A program made the position numbers and the translations under genes. The notes beneath the pieces were generated by a model. That model was given only the letters and a program-made list of their open reading frames with translations, searched no databases and was not told where the DNA came from. Shown here piece after piece: positions 2,503-6,387 of a stretch of DNA of 6,387 bases. The DNA lies in NCBI GenBank assembly GCA_014534095.1, contig JACVSD010000101.1, forward strand, positions 1-6,387, read 5' to 3'. The DNA comes from Nitrospiraceae bacterium. GTDB lineage: Bacteria > Nitrospirota > Nitrospiria > Nitrospirales > Nitrospiraceae. Each line of letters opens with the position of its first letter. Positions within the stretch are counted from its first letter, which is position 1.

Positions 2503-2582
2503 CGTCGGCCCTCCAGCGCCTCAGAAGGTCGGACCGGAGCATCCTTCCTTGTTCGTGACGATGCGCACGTGTGAACGTGAAT

Positions 2583-2588
2583 GGGAGG
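2583..2588 (+). promoter_or_regulatory. Shine-Dalgarno GGGAGG that favours GTG 2593 as kinase start
   Basis: GGGAGGT lies inside the first codons of the longest kinase frame (ATG 2581) and four bases before an in-frame GTG at 2593. Nothing resembling a ribosome site precedes ATG 2581. The SUMF1-fold gene in this window uses the same GGAGG-to-GTG gap of four bases, and the regulator gene uses AGGAG with a gap of five, so a short gap seems normal here. Confidence 0.55.
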
Positions 2589-2592
2589 TTGT

Positions 2593-4623
2593 GTGCGGAC
2601 CATCCGTGGTCGGATCGTGCTGGCGATCGTCTTGGTCGGCGGCGTGCCGCTGCTGGTCGGACTCATCCTGGCCTACATGTCGGGCATGCGCTCGCTGCGT
2701 GATGTGATCGGGGGAAACTTCCGGACGATCGCTGCGCAGGCCGCAGATCGCGTCACCCTGCTGATCCAGGGCGAGGTGCAAGCCGTCAAATTGCTGGCTT
2801 CTGCGCCGTTACGGGTGCGGCAGCCGGTAATCGACGCCAATCGCACGTACCAGCGCGACGACCGCAAGCCGACCGAGGTCATCCAAGAGCGCATTCGGGC
2901 TTGGGAGAACGGGACGGCGATGTCCGACCGGTTGCTGAAATCGGAATTGTCCCGGTTTCTCACTGAAACCAAAGTGCGGGATGGAGATCGCGTGGCGGGC
3001 TTGCTGATTACGGACCGGTATGGGGCCTTGGTGGCGGCCAGCTCGGAACCGGCCCGCTATTTTTTCGGCGATGAGGTCTGGTGGAGGCGGCTTCAGGAAG
3101 CGGGCGCGGGACAGGTCTTTATCAGCGAGGTCATTTCAGGACAAAGTGGGTCGTTCGGCACGCCGGAAGAAACCATCGATATCGCCGTCCCGATTTTAGA
3201 TGACCATCAGCGGACGATGATCGGCGCCATCAAAGCATCCTATCGCTTTGACGCTTTGTTCGGCATGGTCAATCAGATCCGGATCGGCCAGACCGGACAT
3301 GCCATGCTGTTCAACGCCGCGGGCGAACCGTTGGTGTGCCCGGTCCTTCCTAGGAAGGCTCATCGGATTCCGGAGCCGCTCATGGCGCTCATCGTGTCCG
3401 ATGAGCCGGGTTGGACCATCGCCGCCGACGATGGGCATGGGGCGCGCGAGACCGTCGTGGGATTTGCTCCTGTCCGGGGGTTGGGCGCGCCGCTCGATGG
3501 CTGGCACATTTTCGTCCGCCAACATCCTTCTGAAAGCTATGCACCGATCCGCGAACAAGTGGGTAATCTGGCGCTCATTGGGATGGTCATGGTCGCTCTG
3601 CTCGGAGGGATGGGCCAATACGTCGCAGCCCGAATCGCACGGCCGATTCAGGTGCTGAAAGACGGCGTCGAAGCGATCAGTCGAGGCACCTACGACGGTC
3701 CGCTCGGCATCCGGACGGGAGATGAGTTCGAAGATTTGAGCATCGCCATCCATCGAATGGCGGATAACCTGAAGGAGTCGCGGGGCGAGCTCGAAGCATT
3801 GAATCGCGACCTTGCGGTGCGGATCGATGAAAAAACCGCCGAAGTCGCCCGACAGATGCGCCGGGTGGAAATCTCGGAACGCCTAGCGGCTCTCGGCAAG
3901 GTCGCCAGCGGAATCGCTCACGAGATCAACAATCCCTTGGGGATTATCCTTAACCGCATCGAATGCATGGAAGTCGAGGCGGTGCAGTTGCCGCTTTCCG
4001 ATGAGCTTCGGCGGGATCTGACGGCGATACGGGCGCAAGCCGAACGCATTTTGCGCGTGACGCGCAGCATGTTGACGTTTTCACGAGGAGCGGCCAGCAC
4101 GTTGAAGCCGATCGATCTGAACTGCGTGGTCCGCGCGTGTCTTGCGATGGCCGGCGAGCGATTGTCCGCCCGTCACGTAAGATTGCAGGCGCATCTGCAC
4201 ACGGATGTTCTTCCCGTCATGGGTGACCGCGCACGTCTGGAAACCGTCGTCATCAATGTCATCAATAATGCCATTGATGCGGTGCAGGAGCGGGGCGAGC
4301 AGGCGGTGGTGGAGGTGGCATCGTCGGTGATGCCCTCCACGGACGGAGAGTGGGCCACCGTGACAGTATCCGACAACGGTCCCGGTATTCCCGAGGATGC
4401 GCTGGAGCGCATATTCGATCCTTTTTTCACGACGAAGACCGCAGCGCAAGGCAACGGCCTTGGTCTGTTCTTAAGTTATGGAATTGTGTCGGAGCATCGG
4501 GGGCGGCTCGACGTGGCCAACGGTGAGCGCGGCGCCATATTTACGGTCCGGCTGCCGGCATTGAGGCATTCCCCCTTGGAAGAATTTCAGGAGCAAACAT
4601 GGGAATCCAGAACAAGATCCTGA
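2593..4623 (+). CDS. Membrane sensor histidine kinase (dCache-HAMP-HisKA-HATPase), partner of a sigma-54 response regulator
   Basis: 676 residues from GTG 2593 (680 from ATG 2581); numbering here is from 2593. The first helix spans about 8-28 (VLAIVLVGGVPLLVGLILAY). An extracytoplasmic region of about 290 residues follows and has dCache_1-type features, including RYFFGDEVWWRRL, GQVFISEVISGQSG, IDIAVPILDD and the 'IGQTGHAMLFNAAGEPLV' segment. The second helix is about 323-345, then a HAMP linker (ARIARPIQVLKDGVEAISRG) and a coiled coil. The H-box is LGKVASGIAHEINNPLG with the phospho-acceptor at His443. The ATPase has an N-box (VINVINNAID, about 553-562), G1 DNGPG from Asp594, an FDPFFTTK F-box (608-615) and G2 GNGLGL from 620. 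This is the NtrB/AtoS/ZraS type of kinase that phosphorylates NtrC-family regulators. All catalytic motifs look intact. The ligand of the sensor domain cannot be predicted. Its 3' end overlaps the regulator gene by 25 bp, which supports coupled translation. Confidence 0.93.
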   Translation: MRTIRGRIVLAIVLVGGVPLLVGLILAYMSGMRSLRDVIGGNFRTIAAQAADRVTLLIQGEVQAVKLLASAPLRVRQPVIDANRTYQRDDRKPTEVIQERIRAWENGTAMSDRLLKSELSRFLTETKVRDGDRVAGLLITDRYGALVAASSEPARYFFGDEVWWRRLQEAGAGQVFISEVISGQSGSFGTPEETIDIAVPILDDHQRTMIGAIKASYRFDALFGMVNQIRIGQTGHAMLFNAAGEPLVCPVLPRKAHRIPEPLMALIVSDEPGWTIAADDGHGARETVVGFAPVRGLGAPLDGWHIFVRQHPSESYAPIREQVGNLALIGMVMVALLGGMGQYVAARIARPIQVLKDGVEAISRGTYDGPLGIRTGDEFEDLSIAIHRMADNLKESRGELEALNRDLAVRIDEKTAEVARQMRRVEISERLAALGKVASGIAHEINNPLGIILNRIECMEVEAVQLPLSDELRRDLTAIRAQAERILRVTRSMLTFSRGAASTLKPIDLNCVVRACLAMAGERLSARHVRLQAHLHTDVLPVMGDRARLETVVINVINNAIDAVQERGEQAVVEVASSVMPSTDGEWATVTVSDNGPGIPEDALERIFDPFFTTKTAAQGNGLGLFLSYGIVSEHRGRLDVANGERGAIFTVRLPALRHSPLEEFQEQTWESRTRS

Positions 4624-6011
4624 TTGTCGATGACGAGCATGAAGCGTTGGAGAATTGCCGGCGTATTTTGAGCCGATTGCGTTACGACTGTTTGACCGAA
4701 GATGACCCCGCACGGGCGCTGACCGTCTTGAAGCAGGAACGTCCCGGGTTGGTTTTGACTGATTTGCGCATGCCCGGGATTGATGGTCTCGAAGTGCTGA
4801 CGGCCGCGAAACGACTGGATCCCGACGTGCAGGTCGTCCTCATGACGGCTTATGCGACGGTTCCAACTGCAGTCGCATCGATGCGAGACGGGGCGTTCGA
4901 TTATTTGCCGAAACCGTTTTCAAGCGCCGAGCTGGAAGACGTGGCGCGGCGCGCATTCGGCGGCGACAACCGCAAGGCCGACGCCATGAGCCGTTCGGGA
5001 CACACACCCGACTCGCAATCCGTTCGGACGAAGGGGCGCTACTATGACCGCATTGTGGGGCGAAGTCCTGCCATGTACCGGGCGCTGGAGCTGGTCAAGA
5101 AGATCGCGCCCACCAATGCCAACGTGCTGATCTATGGGGAAAGCGGAACGGGGAAAGAGTTGTGCGCGCGGGCCATTCATGAGTTAAGCCTGCGAAAACA
5201 TCGCCCGTTCATTCCCGTCGATTGCGTGTCGCTGCCCGATACCTTACTGGAGTCTGAACTGTTCGGCCATGAGAAGGGCGCATTCACCGGCGCGCACGTG
5301 TCGAAACCGGGCCTCTTTGAAATGGCCCACGGAGGCACGGTGTTTTTAGATGAAGTGAGCGGGATGACCCCGATGCTGCAAACCCGGCTCCTTCGGGTAC
5401 TGCAGGAGCGGCAAGTTCGCCCGGTCGGCGGAACTCGCTTTCTGGACGTGGACGTTCGGATTGTAGCGGCATCGAATCAGGATTTGGAGGAGGCATGCCG
5501 GCGCGGGGCGTTCCGACAGGACCTGTATTACCGGTTGAATGTGATTTCAGTCGCCTTGCCTCCGTTACGGGCGCGGGAGGGCGATATTGAACTATTGGCC
5601 GACGAGTTTCTGCAGCGGTGCATGAGCCGAAACGGCATGCCGTCGGATGTGAAACCCTATTTCGATCCGACTGTGTTGCAACTCCTCACTCGGTATACAT
5701 GGCCGGGCAACGTTCGCGAACTGCTCAATGTCGTCGAGCGCGCGGCCGCCCTGGCCGATGGCCCCGTGATCCATTGCGATCATCTTCCTGACCGGATTCG
5801 ATGGTCGGAGGGCGGGATGACGCAGGACAATGACTTGGGCCCATTCAAGACGGCGAAGCAGCGATTGGTCCGATTGTTCGAACGCAATTTTCTTATCGAA
5901 TTGCTGAAACGCCATGACGGCAATATGAGCCGCGCCGCGCGCGAGGCCGGTGTGGATCGCAAGACGATGGAGCGCATGGTCAAAAAACACGGTCTGCGCG
6001 GAAAGGGCTAA
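4599..6011 (+). CDS. NtrC-family sigma-54-dependent response regulator (REC-AAA+-Fis HTH)
   Basis: 470 residues from ATG 4599, preceded by AGGAG at 4589-4593. The receiver domain (about 5-120) has the acidic pair Asp11/Asp12, the phosphorylation site Asp55 (TDLRMPG), Thr83 and Lys105 (LPKPF). The AAA+ domain (about 150-385) has Walker A GESGTGKE (180-187), the sigma-54 contact loop GAFTGA (227-232), Walker B GGTVFLDEV (245-253), AASNQDL (290-296), FRQDLYYRLNV (305-315) and WPGNVREL (368-375). The C-terminal Fis-type helix-turn-helix is about 440-465 (GNMSRAAREAGVDRKTMERM). Length and order are standard for NtrC/ZraR/AtoC proteins and no key residue is missing, so it should be able to activate sigma-54 RNA polymerase when phosphorylated by the kinase encoded just upstream. 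Its own stop codon is followed at once by paired palindromes and a -24/-12 promoter, which suggests that the next gene is a direct target. Confidence 0.95.
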   Translation: MGIQNKILIVDDEHEALENCRRILSRLRYDCLTEDDPARALTVLKQERPGLVLTDLRMPGIDGLEVLTAAKRLDPDVQVVLMTAYATVPTAVASMRDGAFDYLPKPFSSAELEDVARRAFGGDNRKADAMSRSGHTPDSQSVRTKGRYYDRIVGRSPAMYRALELVKKIAPTNANVLIYGESGTGKELCARAIHELSLRKHRPFIPVDCVSLPDTLLESELFGHEKGAFTGAHVSKPGLFEMAHGGTVFLDEVSGMTPMLQTRLLRVLQERQVRPVGGTRFLDVDVRIVAASNQDLEEACRRGAFRQDLYYRLNVISVALPPLRAREGDIELLADEFLQRCMSRNGMPSDVKPYFDPTVLQLLTRYTWPGNVRELLNVVERAAALADGPVIHCDHLPDRIRWSEGGMTQDNDLGPFKTAKQRLVRLFERNFLIELLKRHDGNMSRAAREAGVDRKTMERMVKKHGLRGKG

Positions 6012-6013
6012 TT

Positions 6014-6035
6014 CATGGGGCGCAAACGCCCCATG
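6014..6035. repeat. Palindrome 1: 9-bp arms, CAAA centre; candidate activator binding site
   Basis: CATGGGGCG-CAAA-CGCCCCATG, a perfect inverted repeat starting three bases after the regulator's stop codon. Positions 6016-6035 match palindrome 2 at 19 of 20 bases. Its centre is about 206 bp upstream of the predicted sigma-54 transcription start. No T-run follows (TGATGATTGTACCC), so a classic intrinsic terminator is less likely than a protein-binding site, although the RNA hairpin could still slow or stop transcription leaving the kinase-regulator operon. Confidence 0.7.
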
Positions 6036-6104
6036 TGATGATTGTACCCTTATGGCGTGTAACTCCGCAGCCTCATGATTCATTCAACGCTTCTCTTATT
6101 TCTC

Positions 6105-6124
6105 TGGGGCGCAAAAGCCCCATG
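6105..6124. repeat. Palindrome 2: GGGGC-N6-GCCCC copy; candidate activator binding site
   Basis: TGGGGCGCAAAAGCCCCATG differs from palindrome 1 at one base in the centre (A for C). The inverted repeat is TGGGGC-GCAAAA-GCCCCA (6105-6122), centred about 117 bp upstream of the predicted start. Conservation of the copy against an otherwise unrelated background, in a non-coding stretch, points to selection for a binding motif GGGGC-N6-GCCCC. No T-run follows here either (GAAGCCGAAATGG). Confidence 0.7.
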
Positions 6125-6204
6125 GAAGCCGAAATGGATCAGGGCCCCTCACGACAATCCGCTGAATTGTAGCCCGTTTTGATTAATCTCCTGATCGCTC
6201 TACG

Positions 6205-6220
6205 TGGAACGGCCTTTGCA
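6205..6220 (+). promoter_or_regulatory. Sigma-54 (-24/-12) promoter
   Basis: TGGAACGGCCTTTGCA matches the consensus TGGCACG-N4-TTGCW at every fixed position but one (A for C after TGG). The invariant GG (6206-6207) and GC (6218-6219) are exactly ten bases apart, as RpoN requires. The predicted transcription start is near 6231, reading toward the gene at 6380. Its place, between a sigma-54 activator gene with paired palindromes and a well-marked translation start, strongly supports function. No experimental evidence is available. Confidence 0.82.
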
Positions 6221-6365
6221 GATTCTTACGCTGCTCTGAGCCGGCGCAGTGCCTACCGATTTTGCCATCTTGATGGAACTCATACAGTTTGCGGGTTGAA
6301 ATCGTCATCGATGAATCAGCGTTTCATGTGTTTCAGTTCATTTTAGCGGTCTATTTTTAGTAGTC

Positions 6366-6373
6366 TAAGGAGG
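6366..6373 (+). promoter_or_regulatory. Perfect Shine-Dalgarno TAAGGAGG before the ATG at 6380
   Basis: Same octamer as at 1068-1075, here with a six-base gap (AAAAGA) to ATG, close to ideal. It predicts efficient translation of the next gene. Confidence 0.8.
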
Positions 6374-6379
6374 AAAAGA

Positions 6380-6387
6380 ATGCGAAC
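6380..6387 (+). CDS. First codons of an unidentified gene (continues beyond window)
   Basis: ATG CGA AC is all that is visible (Met-Arg-...). It is called because of the perfect ribosome site at six bases and the sigma-54 promoter upstream. The product cannot be named from this window. From its position it is the most likely direct target of the adjacent two-component system. Confidence 0.6.

Follow-up and report, generated by a model that had tools for sequence, protein, structure and literature searches.

Paired palindromes as candidate activator sites of an NtrC-class regulator upstream of giant MnxG-like multicopper oxidase genes in Nitrospira

Introduction

Upstream activating sites of the NtrC family, as at Escherichia coli glnAp2, are inverted repeats located 80-250 bp upstream of a GG-N10-GC promoter, and their cognate AAA+ activator combines a GAFTGA motif with a Fis-type helix-turn-helix (HTH) domain. 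At E. coli glnA, the NtrC sites are ~3 helical turns apart. The Nitrospira locus described here resembles this arrangement in both sites and activator, and differs from it in its recognition sequence (ATGGGRC-N6-GYCCCAT) and in the distance between sites, which is ~8.6 turns except in one genome (G013, 32 bp).

In Pseudomonas putida GB-1, MnxS1/MnxS2-MnxR control mnxG and mcoA (PMC11409713, PMC11930936, PMC8218464), and IHF and sigma-54 sites have been predicted at both promoters (PMC11409713, PMC11930936). As in our locus, a histidine kinase and a sigma-54-dependent response regulator are there tied to a MnxG-type multicopper oxidase. Pseudomonas belongs to another phylum, however, and the Nitrospira oxidase falls below the NCBIfam MnxG cut-off, and we regard MnxSR as a functional parallel rather than as a system to which this locus belongs. 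For the Desulfovibrio vulgaris orp operon, DVU2106 palindromes, a sigma-54 promoter and IHF-assisted looping have been described (PMC3897727). Palindromic activator sites with a sigma-54 promoter are common to both loci, whereas the IHF sites of orp lie between activator site and promoter and the IHF-like element of Nitrospira lies between the two activator sites (19 of 26 representatives). A MnxG-like multicopper oxidase is conserved in Nitrospina and Nitrospira, with a proposed role in oxidative-stress or reactive-oxygen defence (PMC3578206), and the Nitrospira MnxG has been proposed to act in manganese removal or oxidation in water filters (PMC12070406). Among the titles and abstract openings listed for open-access papers on Nitrospira sigma-54, enhancer binding proteins and the MnxR binding site, we did not find this enhancer described, which does not prove that a description is absent.

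Here, we analyze a 6,387-nucleotide stretch of Nitrospiraceae DNA (hereafter the window) in which an earlier note, made from the sequence alone, had proposed a probable enhancer for the adjacent regulator. For the giant MnxG-like oxidases of Nitrospira, comparison with relatives suggests a two-component regulator, the DNA motif that it would recognize and the gene that it would control.

Results and Discussion

Two palindromes between a regulator gene and a sigma-54 promoter

Two 20-nt palindromes, treated here as unstranded candidate enhancer sites with like pairs at 50 other loci, lie near the end of the window: site 1 at 6016-6035 (ATGGGGCGCAAACGCCCCAT, centre ~6024.5) and site 2 at 6105-6124 (CTGGGGCGCAAAAGCCCCAT, centre ~6113.5). 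Their starts are 89 bp apart and their shared form is TGGGGCGCAAA[C/A]GCCCCATG. A repeat search of 5950-6387 returned a single direct-repeat family (20 nt, 95% identical, one difference), confirming the earlier description of two near-identical inverted repeats that differ by one base. Allowing up to one mismatch, TGGGGCNNNNNNGCCCCA matches the window twice, both times exactly, against 0.03 matches expected, and two matches were obtained in none of 200 shuffles of the window. The simpler pattern GGGGC-N6-GCCCC has no exact match in the window beyond the two reported, and with two mismatches it is found six times in the whole window (6.1 expected), i.e., at chance level. The spacer between the sites (about 6035-6104, 69 bp, unstranded) keeps its length in relatives, not its sequence.

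A predicted, consensus-like -24/-12 sigma-54 promoter follows on the forward strand at 6205-6220 (TGGAACGGCCTTTGCA, TGGAAC-N5-TTGCA, a GG-N10-GC arrangement), recognized by sequence, scan and comparison, with its -12 GC 105 bp from the centre of site 2. Because this promoter puts the start of transcription near 6230, the sites are centred at about -206 and -117, as had been calculated before. All 50 other pairs likewise have a sigma-54-type promoter, in one case at 61 bp.

Upstream of the sites, the forward strand encodes an NtrC-class response regulator (4599-6011) with receiver, sigma-54 AAA+ and Fis-type HTH (HTH_8) domains, as identified from Pfam, orthologs and the motifs GESGTGKE (Walker A), GAFTGA and TDLRMPG; this is the proposed binder of the sites. 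Its gene overlaps that of a sensor histidine kinase (2581-4623, forward strand; dCache, HAMP, HisKA and HATPase domains in Pfam), the proposed partner of the regulator. The window further contains a partial CopD-like gene, an ORF without Pfam match, a gene with an FGE-sulfatase domain and a DUF488 gene. At its very end (6367-6387, forward strand), a strong ribosome-binding site (AAGGAGG) and an ATG at 6380, ~257 bp past site 2, mark the start of a further gene. Since the window ends after the first eight bases of this gene, its identity is taken from the synteny of relatives, according to which it very probably encodes a giant MnxG-like multicopper oxidase.

From the motif, its geometry and the comparisons below, we consider it highly likely that the palindromes are upstream activating sites through which the regulator encoded at 4599-6011 drives sigma-54 transcription of the downstream oxidase gene. 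The dCache kinase would sense a signal and phosphorylate the regulator, dimers of which would then bind both palindromes; the bound dimers would assemble into an AAA+ ring and loop to the sigma-54 RNA polymerase at 6205-6220, leading to activation of the gene starting at 6380.

The site pair co-occurs with the regulator

A search with the kinase returned two loci from Nitrospira MAGs at 63-65% identity (L001 and L002), plus a distant Desulfovibrio match. At L001, the pair is located not behind the regulator but 3 kb further on, as two GGGGC-N6-GCCCC palindromes 88 bp apart, flanked by a divergent FGE-like gene and the gene of a 1,587-aa multicopper oxidase. Across the 3.2 Mb of that relative's genome, G001, GGGGC-N6-GCCCC occurs twice, both times within the pair, and the reversed control pattern four times, so that the place of the sites, and not their number, is telling. 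The motif is thus not scattered over the genome at gene ends, which the earlier note had named as a sign against an enhancer.

We then considered 175 genomes from a single Nitrospira family, that of G001, and searched them genome-wide for pairs. Pairs with the strict core were found in six genomes (one with the reversed-pattern control), pairs with TGGGG-N8-CCCCA in 11 and pairs with TGGGR-N8-YCCCA (TGGGRN8YCCCA), at a permitted spacing of 74-104 bp, in 43, neither of the latter two patterns giving any pair when reversed. The motif proposed earlier, GGGGC-N6-GCCCC, is to be corrected to the more general form ATGGGRC-N6-GYCCCAT, in which the CAAAM centre is variable.

An ortholog of the regulator (E <= 1e-130) is encoded in 52 of the 175 genomes (the second match in G159 is a 53% paralog), including 42 of the 43 with a strict TGGGR-N8-YCCCA pair, G045 being the exception. 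Looser scoring of the regulator loci adds four slightly degenerate pairs, in G081, G125, G155 and G161 (loci L041, L042, L116 and L119), and brings the total with paired ATGGGRC-N6-GYCCCAT-like sites to 47 of 175 family genomes. The pair is hence present in 46/52 regulator-bearing vs. 1/123 other genomes (Fisher p-value 2e-34, relatedness ignored), the looser scan having covered the fetched regulator loci and 27 oxidase loci of regulator-less genomes rather than the whole of these genomes; if only strict-pattern pairs are counted, 42 of the 52 carry one (Fisher p-value 1e-29, relatedness again ignored). These genomes are kin, and the counts are consequently not independent. Still, the pattern supports the earlier reading of an enhancer for an NtrC-type activator, and across relatives the palindromes are conserved along with the promoter, the spacing and the gene of the regulator, which was the comparison that the earlier note had called for. 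Three genomes (G025, G031, G032) each have two regulators and two pairs.

Six of the 52 regulator-bearing genomes lack a standard pair. In G038 and G110 the regulator loci reach contig ends, G123 has single sites instead of a pair, G013 has a closer-set pair (see below), and scans of the G002 and G126 regulator loci detected no sites. In G002, no oxidase gene was detected within the 6 kb after the regulator (L121), and hence there is no target at that place. In G126 (L122), the gap between regulator and oxidase genes is ~120 bp, without sites or a clear sigma-54 promoter, and the circuit seems lost or rewired. Conversely, G045 (L108, G045:C63:14000-22297) has a pair at 91 bp, no regulator ortholog that we could find, and a promoter at a non-phased 61 bp, which possibly reflects decay once the regulator had been lost, or else a MAG that is incomplete.

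In a wider phylum sample of 395 genomes, pairs were detected in 34, every one in the same family. RpoN scored above cut-off in all 12 relatives tested, and the HTH is the best-conserved domain of the regulator (78% identity to the window, vs. 72% for the receiver and 69% for AAA+).

The pair tracks the promoter of a giant multicopper oxidase gene

Downstream of the pair, the nearest gene from the reference set encodes a ~1,590-aa MnxG-like multicopper oxidase in 45 of 51 pairs (the window and 50 pairs from 47 genomes); among relatives, the length of this oxidase ranges over about 1,450-1,730 aa. A duplicate regulator gene, and then the oxidase gene, follow in three (L025, L097, L101), and the downstream gene is out of view in the remaining three (window, L103, L110). 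The estimated oxidase start is 233-478 bp past site 2 in 44 of the 45; at L027 it is 833 bp past, with a 162-aa ORF in between. The ~257 bp of the window come close to the 261-306 bp measured at most oxidase loci in the higher-identity classes, as compared with 169-181 bp at the duplicate-regulator loci. On the other side, the reference-set gene closest upstream is that of the regulator in 38 of 51 (at L093 after 599 bp), a divergent FGE-like gene in 10, another gene in one (L112) and none in two. The pair thus tracks the oxidase promoter. As sites of the adjacent regulator protein, which was the earlier proposal, the palindromes are supported by co-inheritance, but what they would control is most probably the oxidase gene downstream rather than the regulator itself.

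Oxidase genes of genomes without the regulator are consistent with this. At 27 such loci (>= 86% identity), scanned across the 600 bp ahead of the gene and its first 250 bp, no sites were found, the best match reaching 11 of 14 positions. This set leaves out L047, L050 and L057 (loci without a pair, in regulator-bearing genomes whose pair lies before another paralog), L046 (G126, no sites) and L038 (G013, sites at 32 bp). Ten loci at 54-56% identity from regulator-less genomes (L078-L086, L088), kept apart from the 27, had no sites either (best match 11).

The G001 oxidase has Pfam Cu-oxidase domains, and its closest solved relative in a PDB search is MnxG (9bxa, E 6e-91). Against the NCBIfam MnxG equivalog model, the Nitrospira oxidase scores 137.6 bits for a cut-off of 3100, and this label was rejected; an assignment of the downstream gene as nirK was dropped after the Pfam and PDB searches. 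Giant MnxG-like oxidases (E <= 1e-100) were detected in 171 of the 175 family genomes, many with 2-3 matches, and these counts are lower bounds, since only three candidates were scored in most genomes. They form classes of ~90, 70 and 54% identity to the oxidase of G001, and only some of these oxidases lie behind the candidate enhancer.

Spacing and helical phase are conserved

Start-to-start spacing, with 70-109 bp permitted in the locus scan, was confined to 88-92 bp in all 51 pairs: 88 bp in 11, 89 in six, 90 in five, 91 in 26 and 92 in three. Given the spacing permitted in both searches, distances such as the 32 bp of G013 lie outside the genome-wide one. Site 2 lies 93-98 bp from the -12 GC in 37 pairs, 105-108 bp in 12, 85 bp in one and 61 bp in one (G045); at L112 the promoter CGGAACAGGAGTTGCG, at 96 bp, was picked by eye over the first choice of the script. 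In a tree of 51 regulators (midpoint-rooted purely for display), two changes are required for the 105 class and the one 85-bp locus falls inside the 95 class, and the steps between distances therefore each amount to about one helical turn. The window regulator has the longest branch of this tree, with at most 70% identity to any other row, and yet its locus has the 89-bp pair and the 105-bp promoter distance. When 26 representatives whose spacers are dissimilar are compared, identity is 90% in the arms (a value partly due to selection through the search pattern), 38% in the six central bases and 31% between spacers of equal length.

At 88-92 bp, or ~8.6 turns, the two sites are offset in phase by ~0.6 turn, and site 2 is a near-integral number of turns from the promoter. 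The earlier remark that 89 bp (~8.5 turns) would place the sites on opposite faces of the helix thus stands for 51 of 51 pairs. One further genome, G013 (L038:5636-5687, reverse-complement coordinates), is an exception to the 90-bp rule, with sites 32 bp apart (~3 turns, in phase) and site 2 at 96 bp from the promoter as elsewhere. A half-turn offset is odd for direct cooperative binding, a difficulty that would disappear if the DNA bent between the sites. The conserved out-of-phase spacing provides a clean natural series on the cooperation of activator dimers across opposite DNA faces.

One suggestion is that IHF bending accounts for the offset. In 19 of the 26 representatives, an IHF-like element (7 or more matches out of 9) has the same offset. 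Position +8 relative to the spacer midpoint is enriched for it (mean 5.19 of 9 over the 26), to a degree equalled in 0 of 1000 shuffles, for which the largest maximum was 4.27. The explanation remains at the level of a suggestion because, when the full spacers of the 51 pairs are scanned, the best IHF-like scores barely exceed those of shuffles (6.86 vs. 6.47), and because the window, whose spacer lacks the element, scores 3 at the +8 offset. All 12 genomes examined encode IHF-alpha-like proteins, each scoring narrowly below the curated cut-off of a model that also matches control genomes such as Bacillus subtilis, which leaves HU as a possible candidate. It is tempting to speculate on a lineage-specific enhancer design, dedicated to a Mn-oxidase-like enzyme of nitrifiers, in which sites on opposite faces ~8.6 turns apart would be brought together by an architectural protein such as IHF bending the spacer so that the dimers join, with geometry (88-92 bp, whole-turn steps to the promoter) conserved instead of sequence; we put this forward tentatively, and hold it as a whole to be rather doubtful.

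Other explanations for the palindromes

Palindromes so close to a gene end could also be RNA hairpins, forming an intrinsic terminator or processing signal for the regulator gene: site 1 begins 4 nt past the regulator stop codon (6009-6011), and the sites fold stably (-17.2 and -16.1 kcal/mol). However, 5900-6387 contains no terminator-like site with a T-run, a search of Rfam gave no match, and at the 10 pairs where the nearest recognized upstream gene is the divergent FGE-like one the pair stays with the oxidase promoter. An arm mismatch would moreover break an RNA pair in 16 of 52 representative sites, and in five of the 52 the three central pairs are complementary as well, hence leaving no loop. 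We consider a hairpin function very unlikely. A dispersed (REP-like) repeat or mobile element remnant that came to lie in a promoter by chance is more improbable still, to the point of being negligible. It would account for two near-identical palindromic copies and for the few single sites elsewhere. Single ATGGGRCN6GYCCCAT sites are present in 52 of the 175 genomes, of which 45 have the regulator and seven do not, and at least seven of the sites listed sit away from the gene cluster. Against such a repeat, no genome of the 175 has more than four sites, the only two exact core sites of G001 are those of its pair, and no pair was found in the 285 phylum-sample genomes outside the family.

A different regulator, encoded elsewhere, might instead bind the sites, and the adjacent response regulator would then have its own targets at other places. 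G045, with a pair and no detected ortholog, would fit this, as would G002 and G126, with an ortholog and no pair. The co-occurrence of pair and regulator (46/52 vs. 1/123), the matched copy number in three genomes and the conserved HTH make it improbable, if less so than the hairpin, and favour the adjacent NtrC-class regulator as the protein acting through these sites.

A second regulator gene beside the first

At L034 (9656-10864), the regulator gene is adjoined by that of a second response regulator of 402 aa, with receiver and AAA+ domains and homologs at L031, L035, L037 and L115. Neither GAFTGA nor an HTH domain was detected in the L034 protein, which might either partner the main regulator without activating or antagonize it. 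One lone copy of the palindrome precedes the second regulator gene (L034:9514; L031:6668 and L035:2465, both in reverse-complement coordinates; L037:2529), its centre 38 bp from the -12 GC of a sigma-54-like promoter (CGGCATCGCAATTGCT; CGGCATCGCACTTGCT at L035). It is therefore possible that this gene is a second target, with a promoter-proximal site.
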